Notes under the pieces: model-generated | Told to the model about the DNA's origin: nothing | What the model saw: the letters and a program-made list of their open reading frames with translations, nothing else | The model's database searches: none | Assembly: GCA_027051265.1 (NCBI GenBank) | Contig: JALTZH010000176.1 | Coordinates: 1-11,533, forward strand | Source of the DNA: an archaeon | Lineage (GTDB): Archaea; Hydrothermarchaeota; Hydrothermarchaeia; JALTZZ01; JALUTC01 | Length of the DNA: 11,533 nucleotides | Direction: 5' to 3' | Position numbers and translations under genes: made by a program | Shown here: one piece after another, positions 127 through 11,533 of the stretch | Numbering within the stretch: the first letter of the stretch is position 1 | How the letters are laid out: the number at the start of each line of letters is the position of its first letter

Positions 127-1014
127 CTACCGTCTCGCACTCGCTTTGTATCTGCTCGCCTTTTCCCCTTCTGCCAGCTTTCTGAAGATGTAGAGGTGCT
201 CGTGGGCGATGAGAAGGAAGTCGTACCTGCCACGCCACCTTTCGCGGGTGGTTTTCATCTTCCACTGGAGCTTTACCACCTCCTCGCGCAGCACAAAGCC
301 GGCGTCGAGGAAGGCTTGCAGTACCCTCTCGGCTATGGGCACGTAGTGCCTGTGCCTCCGCGTATCTCCAATCAGCACGGCGCAGTGCTTCCCCGGCTTG
401 AGCACGCGGTAGCACTCCTCAGCAACCCTGCGCATCTCTTCTATGCAGTCCTCCAGCTTGAGCGAGGATAAATCCCCGGGAACGCGCTTCGCGGAGTAGG
501 CGATTATTCCGGCGTAGGGCGGGTGCGTGGCGATTAGGTCAACGCTTTCGTCGGGAATCAGATTCAGGTTGCGCGCGTCTCCGACGTAGGTTCTTATCTC
601 AGGCTCCTCCTCGTCGAGAGGCATGAAGGAGAAGTCCAGGCGGTTCCTCGTGACCATTATTGCGTCGGGATTTATGTCCACAGCTATGCAGCGCCGCTGC
701 AGAAGCCTGCACTCAACCGCAGTTGTGCCAGAGCCAACCATCTGGTCCAGCACGAGGTCGCCCTTCTCGGTGTAGCGCAGAATTAGGTTTCTGGGAATGT
801 AGGGCGACCAGTTGCCCCGGTAGTTTCCTCTATGCGTGGCCCAGTCCCCGCGCTCCGGAAAGCTCCAAACCGTCGTGGTCTCAAGCTTAAAATTCTTCGG
901 GGCGAATTTTTTTATAACGTGCCTCTCGGGAAGCGCGACCTTCACATTTTCGATGACGACATAAGGGTGAGTTTTGCGGAATTTGAGGTAGTCTTCATGG
1001 GTTATTTCGCACAT
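127..1014 (-). CDS. DNA (N4-cytosine/N6-adenine) methyltransferase, amino-MTase fold
   Basis: Predicted S-adenosylmethionine-dependent DNA amino-methyltransferase. Numbering from the ATG at 1014 (295 aa), a SAM-binding motif I, DQMVGSGTT, lies at residues 90-98, followed by a motif II-like acidic end of strand 2 in AVDINPDA (about 111-118) and a catalytic motif IV, THPPY, at 163-167. Motif I precedes motif IV with no large domain between them, a gamma-like order. The segment RGNYRGNWSPYIPRNLI just before motif I is typical of the M.MvaI-like/archaeal N4-C methylase group. An upstream in-frame TTG at 1053 would add 13 residues but sits inside the inverted repeat, so the ATG (MCEITHEDY) is preferred. 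A TATA-like TTAATAAAAA about 25 bases upstream would make the transcript nearly leaderless. It is divergent from a restriction-like gene, suggesting an R-M pair whose effector partner has been split by the island. Target sequence unknown. RNA methylation by a Trm11-like relative is the alternative. Confidence 0.8.
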   Translation of the reverse strand: MCEITHEDYLKFRKTHPYVVIENVKVALPERHVIKKFAPKNFKLETTTVWSFPERGDWATHRGNYRGNWSPYIPRNLILRYTEKGDLVLDQMVGSGTTAVECRLLQRRCIAVDINPDAIMVTRNRLDFSFMPLDEEEPEIRTYVGDARNLNLIPDESVDLIATHPPYAGIIAYSAKRVPGDLSSLKLEDCIEEMRRVAEECYRVLKPGKHCAVLIGDTRRHRHYVPIAERVLQAFLDAGFVLREEVVKLQWKMKTTRERWRGRYDFLLIAHEHLYIFRKLAEGEKASRYKASARR

Positions 1015-1142
1015 TTTTCGTGATTCTGGATCATAATTTTTATTAAGATCCAATCAGATCACTTTACGTAAATTTGTGATCTGATCGATCCAACATATGG
1101 TATTTAAGCTTAATTATGGATTTTTGTAATTAAGTTGTAACA
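1015..1142. promoter_or_regulatory. Divergent promoter region between the methyltransferase and the PUA/EVE-nuclease gene
   Basis: This AT-rich stretch separates two outward-facing genes. For the + strand, TATTTAAG at 1101-1108 is a plausible archaeal TATA box, putting the transcript start near 1130 and a short leader before ATG 1143. The same element lies in a perfect palindrome (TTAAGCTTAA, 1104-1113), so it could also serve the - strand. A second - strand candidate is the AT-rich TTAATAAAAA complementary to about 1036-1045, which would give a nearly leaderless methyltransferase message from ATG 1014. No Shine-Dalgarno sequence is seen for either gene. The box assignments come from reading the sequence by eye and are approximate. 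Confidence 0.5.
1053..1085. repeat. 10-bp perfect inverted repeat with a palindromic core (candidate operator)
   Basis: ATCAGATCAC (1053-1062) is matched exactly in inverted orientation by GTGATCTGAT (1076-1085). The 13-base spacer itself begins with the palindrome TTTACGTAAA (1063-1072). It lies between the two divergent genes and just upstream of the candidate methyltransferase promoter, the position expected of an operator for a dimeric regulator or for autoregulation by the methyltransferase. The region 1029-1090 also holds six GATC sites, two of them within the arms. As RNA the arms could form a stem, but there is no T-run making it a terminator. The repeat is directly visible; its regulatory role is inference. 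Confidence 0.65.
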
Positions 1143-1841
1143 ATGCAACCAAAAGGTTTAGATCCCAGAACCTTCAACTCTCATATTATGCCTTCATACT
1201 TCTTCGTGGCTGTCTCAAATCAGGAGAACCTCAAGCTGTGCAAGCGTTATGCATTAGCCGGGTTTACCAGCAACATAAATGGAGCGTGGGCTTTTTCGGA
1301 AATTGAAGCGGGTGACTACATCTCCTTTCTCTACGGCGCCAGAGCCCACAATCTCTATCAGGTGGTGCACAAGGAGGCGATAAAGAATGCCGAGCACCTC
1401 CCGCCCTGGAAGCCGCTGACGTTTAAGGAGAGCGGGAAAACCTACCACTTCCCCTTTCGCCTCTATCTCAGGCAGGTGCGAACCTTTGAAGAGCCCATCG
1501 TTAGGGCGGAATTCTCCTACATCGTCGAGAACCTACTGCTGCGCGGTGGATACAGGAAAACCCACTTTCAGGCGGACCTCACAACGCTTCAGAACGTTTC
1601 CCAGATGGGCGAGGTTTTCAATGGCGAGGCGGAAGCGCTGGAAATGCCGCCCTATGAAACCTTTACGCCAATGTTTGTGAGGAGCAGGAAGGTTTCACCG
1701 CCCTACATCCTGCCCTTCCGCGAGGTGATACTCCAGGCGCTGGTTAGGCGTTATTTGATGAAGGAAGTAAATCTTAAGGCTCTATTCAATAACCTTTTTA
1801 TCTATTACTCTAATTATGTCAATATTTTCTGCAATATCTGA
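1143..1841 (+). CDS. PUA/EVE-like domain protein, N-terminal part of a split nuclease gene with a chimeric tail
   Basis: The open frame encodes 232 residues, but only about the first 205 (to Leu at 1755-1757) have the GC-rich codon use of the flank. The last 20 or so (ending in [14 protein letters not shown]) are translated from island DNA antisense to the end of the drmE-like gene, which the frame overlaps by 60 bases. Met16 at 1188 ([14 protein letters not shown]) may be the true start, because the fold begins there. The first ~100 residues (strand, [17 protein letters not shown] turn, strands) resemble PUA-superfamily EVE/YTH-type domains, which bind modified bases. The later part ends in an amphipathic helix, [14 protein letters not shown], of the kind that leads into a nuclease domain. 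That nuclease domain appears in the right flank from 11332. Interruption by the island is the best explanation, so the product is probably non-functional as an effector. The EVE call is moderate. Confidence 0.6.
1768..1778 (+). repeat. Left copy of the 11-bp direct repeat bracketing the island
   Basis: TAAATCTTAAG is repeated exactly at 11304-11314, with 9,525 bases between the two copies. The left copy lies 3 bases beyond the stop codon of the last island gene, at the GC-to-AT composition switch. Its CTTAAG core is palindromic, so the two edges also match partly in inverted orientation (GAAG...ATCTTAAG when the right edge is reverse-complemented). It may be a target duplication, an att-like core, or a subterminal part of the element. 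Confidence 0.55.
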
Positions 1842-4061
1842 GATGGTTATACCCAAATTTTTATCTATTTCAATTTCGGAAAAATTTTCCAAATATCCTT
1901 CATAAAGTTTTCTTATAGTATTTGATAATATTCTACCCGTTTTTATGTTTAATCCACGAATTTTTTTCAATGAAGTTGCTATATTTTTCCAAAAAGTTAG
2001 TAAAACGCTGTCGTTAAATATCTTTGCTATTCTGTATATGTCTCTATAATCACGTGGACCCATAACATATCCCATTTTCCAAGCATAGATAGTAGTAGGC
2101 TCTGTGATTTCACTTCCCATTTTCTTCAATCTTTCAAGTACATGATAATAATCCGCGTTTTCTAAATTTTCTGCTATTCTATATCTCCATATATCTATAA
2201 ACTTTGTATACTCTTTATATTTAGGATTATCTTTCATTTTGTCTAATAAAATTTCTAGTCTAGTTTTTTTAAATTCATTATCATATACTATCACATGTTC
2301 TCCAACATTTACCTCGCTCGCTTTTTTTCTAACTATTTTATAATCAGGAGTTAGAATATCAATATTTTCATTTTCGTAGTAACACATAATTTCTTCATTT
2401 TCAAATTTAAACTGGTATTTTTTAATTTTTAATTGAAATTGCTTTTCTGTAATTGATTTCACTTTGTTTATACCGGAGGATATTTCAAAATCTTCTTCAC
2501 CATTTAGTATCTCGTGTATAATGTCATCCCACAATTCAAATACCTTTTTGGCAGCTTTATCATAACTGAGTTTCCTATATGAAGTAGGATACCTTTCTTC
2601 ATACTTTTTCAAGTTTTTAGTTTTTTCAAAATTTTTTAAAGATTGTACAACCGTTAATTTGTTATATTCACTTAATATTTTTGAAAAAACCTTATTATAA
2701 TAGTTATATTCTGGTACATAAAAAATAAATACAACATTATCGATAATTGGGGAAGTTATTAGAGAAAATGCTTTTCTGGTATAATTATGATGTGTTAGAA
2801 AGGATGGAAATAAACCCCATTTGTAAATATCATTAACTTTGAATATAGATGACGTTGTATAAACATCTATCCAATCTAACCATGATGGAAGAATTTCCAT
2901 TAAAAATTCTTCTAATGCTAATTTTTCTTGTTGGGATGATGTCAATATTAACATTTTATCTCCTGATTTACTAATTTCTTTGATAATATTTTTAAAAATT
3001 TCAACTTTTCCAGATGATTCTGACATTTCATTAAGTTTTTCTAAGTCTAATATAAATTTAAAAAGATATTCATTTCCAATAGAAATTGCCAAATTTCTGA
3101 GTCTCTCGAAAATTTTATCTAAATTGGCAATATAGGTATAAGGAGAGATATATTTTTTTAAAATTCTTGAGGGTAAATATCTCCATTCAAAATAGTTTAT
3201 TGCGAATTTATAAATATAAGCGAAATTAATTGCTGATTCTAAATCTCTCATTTGATTTTTAACATAGTAATAATTTTCCCAGCATTTTTTTAGTTGATCG
3301 TTTAAATATTCATCTTTAACAATTTCTATTTTTTTAATTTTTTCAGCAATTGTTTTTGCTAACAATGAGTTTGGAATTTCGAAAGATCTTTCCCTTAAAA
3401 TTATATTTTCTCTACCTTCTAGATTAATATGTTCTTTTAATGTTTTGTTATTAATCCCAAAGAATTCTACTTTTAAATTTTTGGCTTTGGCATCGCTAAA
3501 AATTAAGTTATAAGCATCTAAATTAAAGAAAGATGATACAAACAAAATATATTTATCATCATTAATTTTAGAAAGAACTTTTTTAAGCTGTTGTAATGAA
3601 AAGTTGGCAACATCAATAATAATACCCGCAAAATCTTTATCTAAATCTGATAAGTTATTAGAAAAACTTATAAAAGCAAATTTCTTTACTTTTTCTTTGT
3701 TTAGTTTTCTTTTTCTTACTATATTTTTATATACGTTTTCTAAAATTTTATTACGTGTTGAAAGGACTAAAACATGTGATTTATTCCTATTTTTTGTTTT
3801 TCCAAGGAAGTAATAATACATAGAAAGTGCAAATAGTGGTATATAATAGAAATTCTGGATTGGTAGGAGGACAATTAAATTATTTCCTGCAAATAAATGG
3901 CTGATGATTGCCGTATTATATACTTTAAATATTTTCCCCGGAGTATAAATTTTTTGGTTTTCTGATTCAGAGTTATATATTATCTCAACATTTTTAAATT
4001 CATTCTCCACATCTTTTATAATATTTTTAGGGATTTCTATAGCAATTTTGCCTCCCTCCAT
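1782..4061 (-). CDS. drmE: DrmE-like DISARM protein (degenerate helicase fold)
   Basis: A 759-residue protein with no intact catalytic motif that I recognise. Residues 55-180 follow an SF2 RecA-like plan with eroded motifs: [11 protein letters not shown] (58-67) where Walker A should be, [10 protein letters not shown] (95-104) at motif Ia, [12 protein letters not shown] (144-155) in place of a DExx box, and [10 protein letters not shown] (170-179) at motif III. A second RecA-like region starts near 367 ([11 protein letters not shown]). The C-terminal ~180 residues contain [12 protein letters not shown] and [22 protein letters not shown], matching my recollection of the C-terminal region of DISARM DrmE. 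Class 2 DISARM pairs drmE with drmA-drmB-drmC, which fits, although there drmE is usually first and here it is last. Its start overlaps drmC by 25 bases, and the first codons (ATGGAGGGAGG) contain the only ribosome-binding-like sequence, so a slightly later start cannot be excluded. Function within DISARM is unknown. Confidence 0.55.
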
Positions 4062-4888
4062 ATAATATCAAAGTATTGAGAGTATGTTTCCACAATAGGA
4101 CCTCTTAGATAAACACCAGCTTCGCACAGAAATCCAAAAAGACTGTTTTTTCTTATTTCACCACTACCGACATAGGCTTTAGAATCATCAACAATTATTA
4201 ATTTTGTATGTAGCGAATAAATTATACCGTAATTATCATATTTATGGAAATATCTAATTTCTACTTTATTATTGCATGCATTGATAAGATTATTTTTTAG
4301 AAAATCCGCTAATCTTTTTCTATTTTCGTCATATCTTATTAAAATCTTTATTTTAATACCAGCTTTACATTTCTTTAGCAGTTCATATATGTAATTTGAT
4401 AACCCTGTTTCATCCATAAATGGTGATATTATTTTAATCTCTCTATTAGCCTCCTTGATCAGTTTTTTAAATAGCTCTTTCTGACGAGTAAACGTTCCTG
4501 TTATTTCACTCATGATAGTTATGGGAGCCTCAAAAACAGGTATGATATCATTATTATCATTCTCATGTGTAGTTAAATTCTCAATTTCTAGCTTTTCTTC
4601 GGGTTCCTCTAATTGGACTATATACCTATAATTGTCAATTTTATCAGTAATGGTGAAGAAATCACTATAGATGTCTTTTAGAGTTTTATTGGCGTGTTCT
4701 AACACCCCTTCTCCTATCAATATCTTCAAAGCTTCTTCTGCTAAATCATGAGGTAAATTAGCTTTACTGATTAATGCTTGTATAATTTCTGATCCTTTTA
4801 TATATCTCATTTCTCTTTTTTTAAATAGCTTTTTAATTTCTGGAATTACGATATCATTGAATATCTGTGGAGTTAGTTCATAAATCAT
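4037..4888 (-). CDS. drmC: DrmC-like phospholipase-D-fold protein
   Basis: A 283-residue protein with a PLD-superfamily domain in its second half. The single HxKx4D motif is H227-T-K229 through D234, followed by YVGSGEIRKNS, the glycine/serine turn that normally completes an HKD active site. One HKD per chain implies dimerisation to form the site. The strand-helix unit FTRQKELFKKLIKEANREI-KIISPFMD (133-159) is the usual entry to the PLD fold. Residues 1-80 look like a winged-helix domain (ISKANLPHDLAEEALKILIGEGVLEHANK), and an acidic linker follows (93-120). In DISARM, DrmC is the PLD component; it is often dispensable and its substrate is not settled, though a nuclease role is presumed. The gene overlaps the end of drmB by 11 bases, with AAGAGGTTATT upstream as a weak Shine-Dalgarno, consistent with coupled translation. 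A free-standing PLD nuclease is the alternative, but the gene order argues for DrmC. Confidence 0.75.
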   Translation of the reverse strand: MIYELTPQIFNDIVIPEIKKLFKKREMRYIKGSEIIQALISKANLPHDLAEEALKILIGEGVLEHANKTLKDIYSDFFTITDKIDNYRYIVQLEEPEEKLEIENLTTHENDNNDIIPVFEAPITIMSEITGTFTRQKELFKKLIKEANREIKIISPFMDETGLSNYIYELLKKCKAGIKIKILIRYDENRKRLADFLKNNLINACNNKVEIRYFHKYDNYGIIYSLHTKLIIVDDSKAYVGSGEIRKNSLFGFLCEAGVYLRGPIVETYSQYFDIIWREAKLL

Positions 4889-6428
4889 CCCAATAACCTC
4901 TTATTTTCTTATTTTCAAAGATATCAAATACATATCTCCTATCTAAGTATTTATTAAAGTCGCTACAGACGACCTCACTTATCATCAAGCAACCAGAACA
5001 AGCATGATCTTCTAAATAGCAAAATGGATCATGAACGCATTCTCTAATTGTATCCTTGGTTTTTTCTATCCAATCTTCTAACATATTTATAAAAAGGCTC
5101 TCTAAATGCCCAAGGGAAGTAGTATAATTTGTATAAATTAAAACTGCTGGTATTTCGGGGAAAAGTAGCTCACTAACAGAATCCACACTAACCCCACTTA
5201 GTACTTGTATGCTTACCAATAGACCATGGGAGATGGTATGAATTAAAGTATATATCCATTCTCTAATTTTACCTTCAGAGAGCAATACATTCCTTATAAA
5301 CCATTCATTTATATTTTCTTGTGGGATAGAATCTATTACACCATTATTTTTCAACCATTTTAATATTCTACTCTTATCGAATTCTATAAGAATGCCTTCA
5401 GTATCTTCAATCTTGTTAGATAAAATCCTATATTTACCATCTTGGATGAAGAAAACGACGTTGGTGGTTCCTTTCTCCATTCTAAACGAATTTACTACAT
5501 ATCCGTATACTCCTTTTATGAGGTTTATACCATCAACACGAGAAAATCTCAACCCTAAGTTTCGAAAATCTTTAGCATCTTCTCGAATAGTATTTGAATA
5601 TATTGAAGCATAATCTGCTAATCTTTCAAATACATATTCATAATTATCCTTAAACTTTTCTTCCACGACATCTTTAATTCTATTTTTTAGATATTCTGAC
5701 TTAACATCATTGGTGAGATATTTTTCTAACTCTTTAAGTTTTTCTAAATCATTACTTACGTCTATCTCCAAATAGTTTGTTATCCAGCTATAATTAGGTT
5801 CATCAAAAGAAGGTGCTGTAAAGCTTAAAGGCGTCGTTAGTCCACTACCCTCTGTAGATTTTAAGCTCATTCTGTTTCTACAACTACTACAGAACATCTG
5901 TAAAGGCTCTTCATACCCACATTTTCTACACTTAAATTTCCATTTTGATACATCATATATTGAAGGTCTTATAAAATCCATTTTTTCATTTTTGTGATAT
6001 TTACAGTATTTTTCTTTAATATCACTTATATTTGAACACTTACAAGCAAAAACGTGGCCAGACTGGACCAACATTTTTCCGCATCTTTCACATTTTAGTT
6101 TTCCTTTTTTAACTATGTAATTTTTCATTTCGTTCATATCTTTAAACCTGATATTCCATCCGCATTTATCATCTGAGCAATAGAAAAACAATGGTCTAAT
6201 TTCATATTCAATGTATCTCGGTTCTACTAACTCCAATAAATCGGGGTCTATATCTATATCCGTAGATCTTTTTATCTCTCTCGAAAATTTTTTTCTAATA
6301 GATTCATCATTATCAATTCTCAAAGACTTTTCTTCCCATTTTAAGACTCTACCTCTTACATTTTCTGCAGAGAAAAAAGCCCCCTCATGGTAATAAAACA
6401 TAGCACTTGTGATATTTCTTCTTATCAT
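4878..6428 (-). CDS. drmB: DrmB-like DUF1998 protein with multiple zinc-binding cysteine pairs
   Basis: A 516-residue protein. The C-terminal region (about 393-500) is a DUF1998 domain: an IHTISHGL helix, strands through PAVLIYTNYTTSLG, then the cysteine set C464, C470, C477, C480 and C488 (HDPFC, DHACSGC, CSDFNKYLDRR) that is the hallmark of the domain. The N-terminal half is unusually rich in paired cysteines: C84/C89, C113/C116, C129/C131/C142, C167/C170 and C180/C183, suggesting two or three zinc ribbons. In DISARM, DrmB partners the DrmA helicase; DrmAB binds DNA ends and is the core of the system. Here the start codon overlaps the drmA stop as ATGA and is preceded by a strong GGGGGGAGATGA Shine-Dalgarno, so the two proteins are probably made in matched amounts. 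DUF1998 proteins also occur outside DISARM next to other helicases, but the full gene set supports DrmB. Confidence 0.85.
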   Translation of the reverse strand: MIRRNITSAMFYYHEGAFFSAENVRGRVLKWEEKSLRIDNDESIRKKFSREIKRSTDIDIDPDLLELVEPRYIEYEIRPLFFYCSDDKCGWNIRFKDMNEMKNYIVKKGKLKCERCGKMLVQSGHVFACKCSNISDIKEKYCKYHKNEKMDFIRPSIYDVSKWKFKCRKCGYEEPLQMFCSSCRNRMSLKSTEGSGLTTPLSFTAPSFDEPNYSWITNYLEIDVSNDLEKLKELEKYLTNDVKSEYLKNRIKDVVEEKFKDNYEYVFERLADYASIYSNTIREDAKDFRNLGLRFSRVDGINLIKGVYGYVVNSFRMEKGTTNVVFFIQDGKYRILSNKIEDTEGILIEFDKSRILKWLKNNGVIDSIPQENINEWFIRNVLLSEGKIREWIYTLIHTISHGLLVSIQVLSGVSVDSVSELLFPEIPAVLIYTNYTTSLGHLESLFINMLEDWIEKTKDTIRECVHDPFCYLEDHACSGCLMISEVVCSDFNKYLDRRYVFDIFENKKIRGYWDDL

Positions 6429-9400
6429 TCTTCATCTCCCCCCTCAGAAATATCTTCTATTTCTTCATATGCGGAAGATAATCGCGCATCATAGGAGGCT
6501 TCTTTTTCAAAATTTGCCTTTGATTCTATGAATTGAGCATTTTTAGCAGGATAAATTTCTATCTCCTTTTCAACATTCTTTAGATTATAAATTGGAAGTT
6601 TTTGTTCATCACAGATCTTTGCAATTTGCTTATTTTGTTGTGATAAACATGTATTCATAATAATATCCACCATATTCTTCACATCTTTCTGGAATTTGTT
6701 TAAAAATTTTGAGGGAGCCCCATATTTCAAGTATAGATATTCTACAGCTTTATTTATGAGATCCATCTTTTCTATTTTATCTTTGCTTATATAATAGTTA
6801 AACTCACTACATTTCATCAAACTACTATTTATCTCTACAATGTCTATATAATAGGAATGAAGAATTGAAAGTACAGCAGATGGAGACATTAACTCTATAG
6901 ATTTAGAAGCCCATCTGTAGAGTGGTATATTTTCTATATATTCGTTAACATTTTCGTGAAATTGGCTGAAATATTTATAAAAACTCTGATCTCTAATCAA
7001 ATTTCCATGATGGATCACAAAAATTAGAGATGGAAACTTCCTACCAACTCTACTTCTTGCCTGTTCATATTCTGATACACTTCTGGGCATACCCCTAAAT
7101 ACCATAATATTAAGTTCGTCAAAATCAATACCATGTGAGATTATTAGAGTAGAACTTATTAACTTTATCTTCTTCTTATCGTCTTTACTTGTTATTTTAT
7201 CCATTAACTCTCTTAATTGATCAAGACTTCGTTCACCAGTTACGAGCTCAGTTTTATTTATAGGGATTGGTTTATACTTCTCTTTTTGGAGCTCTTCATT
7301 TATTATCCCGCCTAAACCGCTTTTTAATTCATTAGCGTCCCTTTTGGATCTATGATATGCAAGGATTATACTATAAAGCTCCAAAAGTTTATTTAATTTA
7401 TCTTTATCGTTTTTATATTCTTCAGTTAACTCTTGTATGGCTTTTTCTATTTCTTTTATTACGTGCCATGTGGCCCAATTTATTGCTCTCCTTACAGGGA
7501 GTATCCCAACAGAAATTCTATGTATTTCATCTTTTTCTCCAAAATAGAATTTTTTAAATGATGGAAAAATTCTATCAGATTTTCCAAAATATAGATTTTG
7601 AATCTGTCTCTCTACACCAGCGGCGGTTGCGGTTGGTGCTATGACTTTTAGCCCTCTTCCACCATATTCTTTTATAACATTTTCTATAATTCCCTCAAGA
7701 TGACTGTTTAAACATCCATCTAACTCTCTTATCATGTGAAGTTCATCTTGAATTAACAATATTGGAGGATTCCCCTTAATATACTTATTCAATTTACATT
7801 TACTTTTATCAAAATACGTACAATCAACATTATCTTTATTTTTCCAATTAATATCACCATATATACACCAATTTTCTCCAAAATATCGATATCCATAACC
7901 TTTTATACATTCTGCAACTTTTCCACCAAATAAGTTTTTAGCTCTATAATTATAATTTAAGATGGCTGCCTTATCGATTGTAGATACAATTACCGAAGGT
8001 ATAAATCTAAATATTTCATTGTCAACCACCAATATTGGTAATATTTCATTACATTTTTCACATTTATGATATATTCGCCCTATATTTTTATCTGCGATTA
8101 ATCTCACTTCTCCAGAACAAAATGGACATTGTGTTACAACTCTAAAATCTCGACCGCTTTTTAACCAATCTAAACCTTTATCGAATCTATTTGGTGTATT
8201 CTTACTTCCGACTAAATATCCCACTGAGATGGGATCTCCTGGGATATTGTGCTCCTCTTTAACTTTATTAGCATAAGACATAAATTTCGATACGATTTCT
8301 AGCTGTTGGAGAGAGAGCATTCTAAGTGGAAATTTAATCCAGGCTACACATCCAAATTTTTCCCCTATTAATCTCTTATAAAAAACACTAAAAAGAACCA
8401 ATCCTAAATACGTCCAAGTTTTTCCTCCTCCAGTAGGCACTCTTATAACTTCTACTTTATCAAACTCTTCACCAACAACCGCTTTTAAGTTTGAAACAAT
8501 AAAAACTATCTGAAATAAATACCATGAACCATCTCTATTTGCTGCTCTTAACATTGTTTTATTAACGAGTTTGAAAGCCTTAAGGGCATCTTTATCTCTT
8601 TTAATAAAGTTGATTCCATCTAAAAATCTATTTATCTCATTTTTTATCTCGTCAGACTTTTTTTCGTCTATATCATGCTTACATTTGTCATACAATTCTT
8701 CCATTTTTGAATGTATACCCTCCAAAATAGGAATTGGGTCTACTGATAAATCCCTAAAAGTGGGCATGTAACCGTATACAGTTATTGATGGCTTAAGTCT
8801 TTTTTGCTTATGAATAGGGATTATCTCAGTTTCTATAGTATTTTGCTCGTAATTAAACTTTGCAGAACAGTTTATTCCGCGTGCTGGTATTTTTATTTTC
8901 GCTCCTGCTTCTGTTTTCATAAATTCAAGTTCTTGATATTTTATGTTATTTCCCATTAAATATGTTTTAATTTTTGGATCAAATATTACAGGAGAAAAAA
9001 CAGAGAAACGTTTAGAATAATTTATTGTGTCATTAGTTAGTTCTATTTTAACTTTAAATTCATTATTTTTTAATCTCTTTATTCCAACTTTTAGTCGTAT
9101 ATCCCAAATTAAATTTTTATGATACTCCTTACCGTTTCTACTATTTAAATATTCTTGATAATCTTTCTCAGACCTTAAATGTACTTCAGGATTAAATTTT
9201 TTATTTCCCGAACCTCTATATAGTCTATCATAATATTTACCATTCAAAAAATCGTGTATTAATTCTTTTGTCATATTATTCATCAATTCATCACTAAAGT
9301 CATAATTACCTTCTTTTAATTCACATACAAATTTTAATTTCAAATTTTTTCTCTTCCACACCTCTCTTACATCTGAATTATGCACAATTTTATATTTTTG

Positions 9401-9676
9401 CTCATTAAATGTTGGATAGACTCTATAATACACAGAGAAGTCAACATCTATTTGAATAGCTTCGGCTCTCTTAATTAAGACAAAATCTAAACCTATAGAA
9501 TTTGGATTAATAATGCTCTTATAATTTCTTTCAGAGTTTTTTGGCTGTAACATTCCAACAAAAAACACACTTTCTGGTTTGTTATCTAATATACGTCGAA
9601 ATTCATCGGACCTTCCAAGTAGTCTATTAACCACTCTAGAACAGATATCCTCTACAATTTTCTCCTCGACTAACAT
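6425..9676 (-). CDS. drmA: DrmA-like SF2 helicase
   Basis: A 1083-residue DNA helicase/translocase. SF2 motifs are in order: Walker A VPTGGGKT (413-420), Ia KFPLRMLSLQQ (448-458), VIVSTIDKAAIL (562-573), motif II DELH (644-647), motif III PTATAAG (681-687), HGIDFDELNIMVFRGMP (848-864), and motif VI QARSRVGR (872-879), all apparently catalytic. An insertion between Ia and II carries a zinc ribbon (C517/C520, C539/C542) and further cysteines (C590, C604, C619, C627). The N-terminal ~390 residues have no recognised motif and presumably correspond to the DrmA N-terminal region. The C-terminus is a short acidic tail (EEIEDISEGGDEE). This layout and size match DISARM DrmA, which with DrmB recognises and moves along unmodified foreign DNA. 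It begins 3 bases after the preceding stop, with AGGGGGAT as ribosome-binding site. Identity to DrmA rather than another DUF1998-linked helicase rests on the neighbourhood. Confidence 0.85.
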   Translation of the reverse strand: MLVEEKIVEDICSRVVNRLLGRSDEFRRILDNKPESVFFVGMLQPKNSERNYKSIINPNSIGLDFVLIKRAEAIQIDVDFSVYYRVYPTFNEQKYKIVHNSDVREVWKRKNLKLKFVCELKEGNYDFSDELMNNMTKELIHDFLNGKYYDRLYRGSGNKKFNPEVHLRSEKDYQEYLNSRNGKEYHKNLIWDIRLKVGIKRLKNNEFKVKIELTNDTINYSKRFSVFSPVIFDPKIKTYLMGNNIKYQELEFMKTEAGAKIKIPARGINCSAKFNYEQNTIETEIIPIHKQKRLKPSITVYGYMPTFRDLSVDPIPILEGIHSKMEELYDKCKHDIDEKKSDEIKNEINRFLDGINFIKRDKDALKAFKLVNKTMLRAANRDGSWYLFQIVFIVSNLKAVVGEEFDKVEVIRVPTGGGKTWTYLGLVLFSVFYKRLIGEKFGCVAWIKFPLRMLSLQQLEIVSKFMSYANKVKEEHNIPGDPISVGYLVGSKNTPNRFDKGLDWLKSGRDFRVVTQCPFCSGEVRLIADKNIGRIYHKCEKCNEILPILVVDNEIFRFIPSVIVSTIDKAAILNYNYRAKNLFGGKVAECIKGYGYRYFGENWCIYGDINWKNKDNVDCTYFDKSKCKLNKYIKGNPPILLIQDELHMIRELDGCLNSHLEGIIENVIKEYGGRGLKVIAPTATAAGVERQIQNLYFGKSDRIFPSFKKFYFGEKDEIHRISVGILPVRRAINWATWHVIKEIEKAIQELTEEYKNDKDKLNKLLELYSIILAYHRSKRDANELKSGLGGIINEELQKEKYKPIPINKTELVTGERSLDQLRELMDKITSKDDKKKIKLISSTLIISHGIDFDELNIMVFRGMPRSVSEYEQARSRVGRKFPSLIFVIHHGNLIRDQSFYKYFSQFHENVNEYIENIPLYRWASKSIELMSPSAVLSILHSYYIDIVEINSSLMKCSEFNYYISKDKIEKMDLINKAVEYLYLKYGAPSKFLNKFQKDVKNMVDIIMNTCLSQQNKQIAKICDEQKLPIYNLKNVEKEIEIYPAKNAQFIESKANFEKEASYDARLSSAYEEIEDISEGGDEE

Positions 9677-9679
9677 TCT

Positions 9680-11260
9680 TTATCCCCCTACTATTGTTAT
9701 CTTCTTAATCCTATAATTCAACGATACACAAGGTGCTTTAAGACATTTTCGGCATTTAACGCACTTTGAGTCGTCAACAGCCAGTTTGCCTCCCTTAATA
9801 TATAATGCATTGTTAGGGCAGTATCCAATACAACCACCGCATCCGACACAGTTTATGGCTTTAAGTAGCTGCTTCTCAAAACTCTTTAACTCATCAATTT
9901 TTGTAGTCTGGACTTTTATCACTCTGTCTTTTACAAAACCTTCAATATAAATAGGATTTCCCGATCCAATTTCTATTGCTTTGATTTCTGGATTTTCCGG
10001 ACAAGATGTAGATATAATTCTTTCTTTATACTCGCCTAAAGGCTTTAAAAACTCAAATATATTTCCATCAACAGGATCATCAAAAATATAAGAATATGTT
10101 TTGTTTATTTTTTTCTTTTTAACTTTTGGAAAAACATCTTTTTTAGGCCTCCTTAATCTCCAGTAGTTTTCAATAACCCAATTTTTATCTCTTCCATGAC
10201 TATATGCATAATCTAATAATATTTCTTCAAATTGCTTCCATTTTTCTGGATGGGTTTTTTTCCTAATAAAACAGTTAAAAGGACTTGCATTTGGGCAAAT
10301 CCAACATCCCACTCTCCTATGCCCATAATTGTAGATGGGATTGTAAATTAAATCATTAAAGAAAATATAAAACCAAACATCTAATTCTTTCCAGTAAAAA
10401 ATTGGATACGCTGCTATTTGGTTAGAAATTTTTTTAATTCTAGATATTTGTTCATATTTTTTTCTTCTTAAGGATTCATATTTTCGTATACCATCAAATG
10501 CTAATGTTTTTACACCCTCTTTTTTATGAAATAAATTTACGGGATAGGCTTTAAATACTGAACAGCACCATCTATAGGGAATTGATGGGGGTCCTAATTC
10601 TTCAATCATGTCCCAGATATTTCTTTCGTTGCGGTAGAAATTACCATTTTCATCAAAAATCAGACGATAATTATATTTATTTGCAAATTCTTTTATAAAT
10701 TCTATAGTTTCATCATATTCAAGCGTTGTATCAGCAAAAAATAGTGGAATATTGCCTATAGCTTTTTTAACCAAATCAGCAGTAACTGTGCTATCTTTGC
10801 CACCGCTAAATGAAATGACTTTATATCTGTCATTATATTTTGATGAAACTTCCCTAATAAACTTAATAGCTTCTGTTGCCTTTTCATTTAAAGTATTATT
10901 GTTTGCTGCTTTAGTTTTATCCATAAATATTTTTTTATTTATCAATTCAGCATCCTTTAGTCTACTTTTAACTTTTTTTTGATCTGTGACTAAGTGTAAT
11001 TTCATTTTATGGAAATCCATTTTAAAAGTCAGCAGTGTTTTTCCATCTAAAATTATTCTGTTTCGTGAAATAAATAGGTTGTCCGGAAGTTCCAAATTAA
11101 AAAATCCTTCATATATCTTTTTTTCTTCTGCAAATACAGGCTTCATATCTATTGCAGTATAAAAACCACGGGACCCACATTTATTACATATCTCAGAAAT
11201 GAGAGGTACATTACATTCATTGCACCAATATACCCCCAAACCACTTTTGCAGTTTTCCAT
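9680..11260 (-). CDS. Zinc-ribbon / PAPS-reductase-like PP-loop / 2x[4Fe-4S] ferredoxin protein
   Basis: A 526-residue protein with four visible parts. (1) N-terminal zinc ribbon: C13, C16, C25, C28. (2) A ~100-residue spacer of unclear fold. (3) A PAPS-reductase (PP-loop ATP pyrophosphatase) domain, about 130-375, with SGGKDST at 152-158, DTTLEYDET at 177-185, and a CC (232-233) followed after 85 residues by CxxC (319-322). CC-X~80-CxxC is the [4Fe-4S] signature of assimilatory APS reductases and is also expected in DndC-type proteins. (4) A C-terminal bacterial-type ferredoxin domain with CxxCxxCx3CP (471-482) and CxxCxxCx4C (500-511). Related fusions in methanogens and Archaeoglobus are annotated as PAPS reductases of unproven function. 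Here it is the first gene of a DISARM operon, so a sulfur-transfer or redox role in defence is proposed. A passenger sulfur-assimilation gene is the alternative. The ATG follows a GGGGTAG ribosome-binding sequence. Confidence 0.85.
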   Translation of the reverse strand: MENCKSGLGVYWCNECNVPLISEICNKCGSRGFYTAIDMKPVFAEEKKIYEGFFNLELPDNLFISRNRIILDGKTLLTFKMDFHKMKLHLVTDQKKVKSRLKDAELINKKIFMDKTKAANNNTLNEKATEAIKFIREVSSKYNDRYKVISFSGGKDSTVTADLVKKAIGNIPLFFADTTLEYDETIEFIKEFANKYNYRLIFDENGNFYRNERNIWDMIEELGPPSIPYRWCCSVFKAYPVNLFHKKEGVKTLAFDGIRKYESLRRKKYEQISRIKKISNQIAAYPIFYWKELDVWFYIFFNDLIYNPIYNYGHRRVGCWICPNASPFNCFIRKKTHPEKWKQFEEILLDYAYSHGRDKNWVIENYWRLRRPKKDVFPKVKKKKINKTYSYIFDDPVDGNIFEFLKPLGEYKERIISTSCPENPEIKAIEIGSGNPIYIEGFVKDRVIKVQTTKIDELKSFEKQLLKAINCVGCGGCIGYCPNNALYIKGGKLAVDDSKCVKCRKCLKAPCVSLNYRIKKITIVGG

Positions 11261-11265
11261 TATTA

Positions 11266-11314
11266 CTACCCCAATTAAAACTCAAATATGGATTGATAAT
11301 ATATAAATCTTAAG
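11266..11314 (-). promoter_or_regulatory. Promoter and ribosome-binding site of the DISARM operon
   Basis: On the - strand, TTTATATATT (complement of 11298-11307) is a near-consensus archaeal TATA box, preceded by purine-bearing TTAAGA in the BRE position. Transcription would start near 11277, leaving a leader of about 17 bases with GGGGTAG (complement of 11266-11272) before ATG 11260. The TATA/BRE overlaps the right copy of the 11-bp repeat, so the promoter travels with the element. No other promoter-like gap exists before 1782, so one transcript probably covers all five genes. Confidence 0.6.
11304..11314 (+). repeat. Right copy of the 11-bp direct repeat bracketing the island
   Basis: TAAATCTTAAG is identical to 1768-1778. 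It overlaps the BRE/TATA of the operon promoter and lies 17 bases inside the point (11332) where flank-type coding sequence resumes. Collapsing the two copies into one does not restore a common reading frame between the left and right gene fragments, so a simple target duplication is not proven. Confidence 0.55.
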
Positions 11315-11331
11315 ATCATTATCTTCTTTGA

Positions 11332-11533
11332 CACAACAACTTTGAAATCCTCAGCGAGAAGGCCCTGCCTCAGGGGCATGTGGACATCCTGATAAAAGAG
11401 GCTGTGCCCATTGGCATGGCCAAAAAGATTGTGGTGGAGGTGAAGCTCGGCAGGGCGAGCAAAGCCAGCATAGAGCAGCTCAAAAGCTACATGGCAGAGC
11501 TCGGCGAGGAGTGCGTTGCGGGCGTGCTTATAG
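11332..11533 (+). pseudogene. PD-(D/E)XK nuclease domain, C-terminal part of the gene split by the island (partial)
   Basis: An open frame runs from 11332 to the right edge with GC-rich codons, immediately after an in-frame TGA (11329-11331), and its first ATG is internal (11416). The translation contains ALPQGHVDILIKE, then KKIVVEVKLGRASKASIEQL, then a strand VAGVLI. This is a PD-(D/E)XK core: Asp at 11383-11385 and E-x-K at 11437-11445, with the QLKSYM helix seen in NucS-like and restriction nucleases. The domain starts too abruptly to be a complete gene. Joining Leu 1755-1757 directly to His 11332 gives RRYLHNNFEILSEK, a natural-looking helix-to-strand passage, so this is read as the missing nuclease half of the PUA/EVE gene at 1143. 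It continues beyond the window. A separate nuclease gene that lost its own start is the alternative. Confidence 0.6.

Follow-up and report, generated by a model that had tools for sequence, protein, structure and literature searches.

DISARM defense systems of the class 2 type, such as those on the Halobacterium and Halorhabdus plasmids (L038 and L039), are arranged as drmE-drmA-drmB-drmC-drmMII and carry a C5 cytosine methyltransferase. In the Serratia DISARM, DrmAB prefers single-stranded DNA with 5' overhangs and remains active when the DNA is methylated (PMC9142583). In BREX type 4 (BrxP-BrxC-PglZ-BrxL), an enzyme of the PAPS reductase plus ferredoxin type sits in the place of the methyltransferase, and a 2026 survey describes this as a swap of the methyltransferase for a PAPS reductase, for phosphorothioation (PMC12839542). 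According to the same survey, an additional alpha+beta domain and a ferredoxin-like region are features that BrxP shares with some SspD proteins (PMC12839542), and the brxPCZL genes have been counted as the third phosphorothioate gene family (PMC11931770). Sulfur-based DNA defense in archaea is represented by the DndCDEA-PbeABCD systems of haloarchaea (PMC6459918), and a defense of that kind is what we propose for the cassette described here. PbeABCD was also considered as a DISARM-like precedent and was rejected, as it is a CxC ABC-ATPase/HKD-helicase system.

The cassette combines DISARM genes with a PAPS reductase/ferredoxin protein (PAPSR-Fd), and the case bears on self-versus-invader discrimination by DISARM. 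In the open-access literature searched, no DISARM system with a PAPS reductase was found to be described, and a 2025 preprint on the YprA family is silent on one, in line with the remark in the original prediction that the combination was apparently uncharacterized.

Gene content of the cassette

The window, that is, the whole stretch of DNA analyzed, is one entire contig (C176; 11,533 bp) from a metagenome-assembled genome of 1.46 Mb, whose close relatives have archaeal genes, such as a RadA gene identified by eye in G016. A minus-strand operon at positions 1782 to 11260 is filled by five open reading frames encoding PAPSR-Fd, DrmA, DrmB, DrmC, and DrmE (Table 1). PAPSR-Fd and drmA are separated by a 3-bp gap, and the remaining junctions overlap by 4, 11, and 25 bp. 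The locus had been described from its letters as a five-gene operon lacking an internal methyltransferase, and this holds: all of the reading frames are in place, the profile matches agree with their naming, and profile searches gave no methyltransferase match among the open reading frames inside 1782 to 11260.

DrmA matches the PADLOC profile at 5e-98, the NCBIfam DrmAS profile at 6e-76, and the DrmA structure PDB 7s9v at 1.3e-32, and its helicase motifs (PTGGGKT, QDELH, and QARSRVGR) are intact. DrmB has a profile match of 3e-35, and DrmC has one of 2e-17 in addition to PLDc_2, with an intact PLD motif. The drmA, drmB (DUF1998), and drmC (PLD) core of DISARM is present in one operon. DISARM is further recognized by a drmMI or drmMII gene in the operon, and neither is found in this one. 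Since an operon methyltransferase is lacking both here and around the second copy discussed below, we have filed the cassette as DISARM-like and not as DISARM proper.

The last gene product scores 100 bits (1e-28) against NCBIfam DrmE_fam (NF038316; cutoff, 80), which marks it as the class 2 accessory protein, and 92.9 bits (2.5e-26) against DrmE_C (cutoff, 27), and its 61 bits against the DISARM_DrmE equivalog lie below the cutoff of 250. In a structure model with a mean pLDDT of 66, residues 12 to 447 match SF2 helicases, and the first lobe of the predicted model aligns to them with Z scores up to 13.8 and an rmsd of 3.4 over 159 residues. Neither Walker A nor DExH motifs were found in this helicase-like region. 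Given the helicase fold without these motifs, DrmE is read as a degenerate helicase, which according to this medium-confidence model would have two RecA-like lobes and a C-terminal domain of its own.

As in the class 2-type plasmid systems, homologs of DrmA, DrmB, DrmC, and DrmE are encoded in one operon. However, the cassette has PAPSR-Fd first, drmE last, and no methyltransferase, and the identity of its DrmA to those of L038 and L039 is only about 26 to 31%. It shares with BREX type 4 the kind of enzyme that takes the methyltransferase's place, but it lacks DUF4007, none of its five proteins matches PglZ, BrxC, or BrxL, and the effector module is that of DISARM. Compared with Ssp systems, SspA, SspB, and SspC are absent, and where those systems have SspE, PbeA, or others as the restriction module, the cassette has DrmABCE.

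Table 1. Positions of the cassette genes, the insertion, and the compared genes in other loci
Feature	Sequence	Positions	Strand	Remarks
PAPSR-Fd	Window	9680-11260	-	526 aa; first gene
DrmA-like helicase	Window	6425-9676	-	1083 aa
DrmB-like protein	Window	4878-6428	-	516 aa; C-terminal MrfA Zn-binding/DUF1998-type region
DrmC-like phospholipase-D-fold nuclease	Window	4037-4888	-	283 aa; HTK...D motif
DrmE-like protein	Window	1782-4061	-	759 aa
TATA-like element TTTATATA	Window	11300-11307	-	~40 nt upstream of PAPSR-Fd start codon; read by eye
Inserted cassette	Window	1787-11339	none	9.55 kb; bounds good to ~10 bp; set by the empty site in G005
5' part of split gene	Window	1143-1786	+	Domain of unknown family; EVE-domain likeness only by eye
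3' part of split gene	Window	11340-11533	+	NucS_C-type nuclease domain, ended by contig edge
N6/N4-type methyltransferase	Window	127-1053		Profile match; nearest one to the cassette; left, high-GC flank outside the insertion
PAPSR-Fd	L043	8410-9993
DrmA	L043	9995-13267
DrmB	L043	13264-14823
DrmC	L043	14814-15665
DrmE	L043	15565-17868
Radical-SAM gene	L143	9365-10660
Radical-SAM gene	L144	1998-3230
Radical-SAM gene	L044	5849-7171
Radical-SAM gene	L052	8386-9579
Radical-SAM gene	L081	7801-9297

A second copy in another phylum

The identical set of five genes, in identical order and between unrelated flanks, is present in a member of Candidatus Thermoplasmatota (L043), where a tyrosine integrase gene lies directly upstream and a second one downstream. 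Identity between the two copies is 57% for DrmB, 54% for DrmC, about 55 to 56% for DrmA, and 42% for DrmE; the top value is the 71% of PAPSR-Fd, which makes the sulfur enzyme the slowest-changing member of the cassette. Because the five genes have kept their order across two phyla with differing flanks, the neighborhood is not due to chance. The original prediction had been staked on PAPSR-Fd being conserved beside drmAB in relatives, and conserved it is, with all five genes carried by L043. These findings suggest that DISARM may mark or sense DNA with sulfur in place of methyl groups.

In a scan of DrmA against about 85,000 species genomes, L043 was the one near relative among the matches listed, the next full-length match listed had 31% identity, and no PAPSR was detected near the other 79 DrmA relatives listed; the intact five-gene examples among these matches are two, the window and L043. 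Among the genomes compared, which are fragmented assemblies, no further copies were found beyond L043's own genome in the 389 sampled from its phylum, in the phyla of L052 (392 genomes) and L082 (227 genomes), in 151 genomes from the phylum of L044 (a search run without a positive control), or in 23 searchable genomes of the window's own phylum. IMG/VR likewise yielded none. Near the radA gene in G016 (L150, 2-343) there is also a truncated PAPSR-Fd of the cassette type, with 60% identity over 114 residues, which is possibly a remnant or a contig-end artifact.

Insertion of the cassette as a unit

Positions 857 to 1786 of the window correspond to positions 1 to 928 of L195, from a genome of the same class (G005), with 90% identity, and positions 11340 to 11533 correspond to positions 965 to 1158 with 94% identity. 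In G005, the two halves form one intact reading frame of 327 amino acids with a NucS-type nuclease domain. The insertion in the window consists of the five genes and little else, no recombinase or transposase was found inside it, and 36 bp of the target are gone. The GC content is 0.29 inside the insertion versus 0.53 and 0.56 on its two sides. As both flanks match a genome of the same lineage, a chimeric assembly is unlikely, and as the empty site indicates that all five genes arrived in a single insertion, the sulfur gene moves together with its drm neighbors. Close to each end of the insertion there is a 10-bp direct repeat (AAATCTTAAG), which was considered as a target duplication and was rejected, as it does not behave as one.

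PAPS_reduct domains are frequent in sulfate assimilation, and PAPSR-Fd could in principle be a hitchhiking sulfur-assimilation gene beside a DISARM operon. We consider this extremely improbable in view of a five-gene unit that is kept across phyla with different flanks, a spacing of 1 to 3 bp between PAPSR-Fd and its neighbor, the entry of the unit in one piece, and the placement of the protein in a defense-type group (see below). A somewhat less improbable alternative is that self DNA is marked by a methyltransferase acting in trans, for example, the one encoded at 127 to 1053, with PAPSR-Fd as an accessory. An N6/N4 methyltransferase gene does adjoin the insertion, and DISARM methyltransferases may work from elsewhere in the genome. 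However, G005 has methyltransferase-homologous sequence beside the intact nuclease gene, so that gene of the window belongs to an older locus that existed before the cassette came in, and no methyltransferase match was found in L043, L148, and L149, which cover about 40 kb of contig surrounding the second copy. The in-trans explanation is therefore one that we doubt. The NucS-type nuclease gene (L195, 312-1292), broken in the window and intact in G005, is divergent to the N6/N4 methyltransferase gene, and the two likely form a restriction-modification pair.

Family placement of PAPSR-Fd

The PAPSR-Fd protein matches PAPS_reduct at 1.9e-40 and Fer4 at its C terminus, and its best PADLOC model is BrxP, at 1e-74. 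An N-terminal zinc ribbon (Cys 13/16/25/28) precedes an intact PP-loop (SGGKDS), a CC...CxxC iron-sulfur motif, and a C-terminal 2x[4Fe-4S] ferredoxin, and both zinc ribbon and ferredoxin are conserved between the homologs compared. The structure model of the protein (pLDDT, 39; shallow alignment) was left out of interpretation.

PAPSR-ferredoxin homologs bearing a PUA domain are common in archaeal genomes; the genome of the second copy (G023) encodes a separate one (L123) besides its cassette protein. The cassette proteins have no PUA domain. A maximum-likelihood tree unites the PUA-type proteins in a clade supported at 100/99, which also includes two rows that are split or cut by contig ends, and puts the cassette pair on the opposite side of that branch. 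On the cassette's side are BrxP of BREX type 4 (L152), the long SspDs (L151, L154, L155, and L186), and PAPSR-Fd genes adjoining PbeA, SMC-ATPase, or HerA-like genes; the node uniting the cassette pair with the rest of this defense group has moderate support (89/81). The long SspDs come from complete SspD-SspB-SspC-SspA operons and are full-length homologs with zinc ribbon, PP-loop, and ferredoxin, at about 30% identity. Three SspDs score 240, 227, and 211 bits versus at most 185 for PUA-type proteins of the window's phylum, but scores of up to 234 bits occur for this type in another phylum, and the family argument is therefore carried by the tree and the architecture and not by the scores. 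The best relatives outside the cassette are headed by a protein of genome G811 and then include SspDs of the complete operons. The proposed kinship to the sulfur enzymes of phosphorothioation systems is thus borne out by a placement with BrxP and the long SspDs, not with the archaeal housekeeping family.

PP-loop enzymes include RNA thiolases. Together with the homology to PUA-domain PAPSR-Fd proteins, this raises the alternative that tRNA or another RNA is what the cassette enzyme thiolates, or that the enzyme has a part in tRNA-based immunity, as could be guessed for the PUA homologs. Such a role seems very unlikely for proteins that have no PUA domain, lie outside the PUA clade, and are encoded with four other genes that are DNA directed.

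Several loci with related genes were seen along the way. The G811 protein, 38% identical to that of the window and the top match outside the cassette, is encoded on a short contig from the phylum of L082 (L184, 505-3793 and 3771-5339), where PAPSR-Fd is followed by an unknown gene and then by a HerA/HAS-barrel ATPase gene; this is possibly another sulfur-linked defense operon without SspB/SspC. PAPSR-Fd adjoins a DndD/PbeC-like SMC ATPase gene in G859 (L188, 5296-8909) and is convergent with a PbeA-type helicase-nuclease gene in G818 (L189, 3-3668). In G840 (L186, 11272-15039), a second large ATPase gene, weakly SspC-like, lies downstream of the complete SspD-B-C-A operon. Genes with PAPS reductase domains also recur in phage and archaeal virus genomes (L156, 5831-6625; L159; an Altiarchaeum virus; and Bacteroides and Rhizobium phages).

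Phosphorothioation partners and a possible mechanism

Characterized phosphorothioation systems have partners of the SspB/SspC type, which counts against a sulfur mark in the present case. SspB/DUF4007, SspC/BrxC, DndD, and DndE are absent from the operon, which also has no cysteine desulfurase gene, and no profile similarity was found to SspB for DrmE, DrmC, or DrmB or to SspC for DrmE. The SspB (DUF4007) and SspC profiles gave no match in the genomes of the window (G000) and of the second copy (G023), which are incomplete or fragmented, in a search in which 14 controls were also empty; L151 is recognized by both models. As SspB and SspC were not found, either their roles have passed to DrmA, DrmB, and DrmE or PAPSR-Fd has some other function.

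On the strength of the gene content and the parallel with BREX type 4, we infer that PAPSR-Fd would stand in for the methyltransferase. That the cassette is a mobile five-gene archaeal defense unit, with a DISARM core and a BrxP/SspD-family sulfurtransferase as the modification enzyme that marks self DNA, is a proposal for which we see evenly balanced chances, and we regard the sulfur mark as a plausible, though unproven, interpretation. PAPSR-Fd would activate DNA phosphates with ATP and deliver sulfur to make a self mark, most likely a phosphorothioate, with electrons coming from its own ferredoxin and sulfur by way of a host cysteine desulfurase. DrmA-DrmB would load on unmarked invading DNA and unwind it, DrmC, the PLD nuclease, may cut this unmarked DNA, and DrmE, the putative degenerate helicase, would have a structural or DNA-binding function alongside them. 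The ATPase and DNA recognition roles played elsewhere by SspC and SspB would thereby fall to DrmAB and DrmE. Only tentatively do we go on to suggest that a BrxP-type sulfurtransferase is partnered by DrmA, DrmB, and DrmE in place of SspB and SspC, which would make a DISARM that depends on phosphorothioates or thio-bases and in which the attacking translocase also places the self mark. If true, this would be a fourth sulfur-marking machine, and DNA thiolation without SspB and SspC would change the view of what is required for making phosphorothioate DNA. The cassette would also be a direct test of whether the DISARM core reads a mark at all.

There is also an alternative in which PAPSR-Fd is a co-effector or a sensor and not a self-marker, altering or attacking the invader's nucleic acid or nucleotides or sensing the redox or nucleotide state, and in which DrmAB reads the invader by its 5' overhangs. 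The preference of DISARM DrmAB for 5'-overhang single-stranded DNA and its action on methylated DNA (PMC9142583) mean that a self mark may be dispensable, which leaves room for such a role; the missing phosphorothioation partners and the conserved ferredoxin and zinc ribbon point the same way. Against it, the relatives of PAPSR-Fd sit in DNA-marking systems, and modification enzymes accompany DrmA in other clades, as described next. We hold a co-effector or sensor function to be unlikely, if worth keeping in mind.

Partner enzymes across the DrmA tree

When the DrmA tree is labeled with the modification enzymes encoded nearby, the labels change 10 times, compared to a mean of 32.4 when shuffled; partner enzymes track the DrmA phylogeny much more closely than by chance. 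Some parts of the tree are dominated by C5 methyltransferases and others by N6 methyltransferases. In several other DrmA clades, the operon includes a modification enzyme or has one close by, in a methyltransferase survey that used few query sequences and in which "none" means none found. The closest DrmA relatives mostly occur with a radical-SAM protein and the more distant ones with methyltransferases. In the archaeal clade that is sister to the cassette (SH-aLRT, 99), most members have the radical-SAM protein (L044, L052, L143, and L144; L081 is outside the tree), and these DISARM-like operons, which are archaeal and from Omnitrophota, have the drmA-B core and in most cases drmC and a drmE-type gene. 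They differ from the cassette in having the radical-SAM protein where the cassette has PAPSR-Fd. A B12-binding domain was detected in two of the five radical-SAM proteins (L143 and L044). Possibly, these operons represent a second case of an exchanged modification enzyme; as L044 encodes a C5 methyltransferase in addition, a radical-SAM protein and a methyltransferase are not mutually exclusive there. A replacement of the methyltransferase by a sulfur enzyme, beside radical-SAM sisters, would show that the DISARM core, like BREX, can be combined with modification modules of unrelated chemistry.

In gut Clostridia and on a viral contig, DISARM-like loci encode a longer and distant radical-SAM protein (L045, 12911-14989; L087, 16979-19021; and L197, 14859-16991), and these loci also have genes, read by eye, for a NERD-like nuclease and an HSP90-like ATPase.
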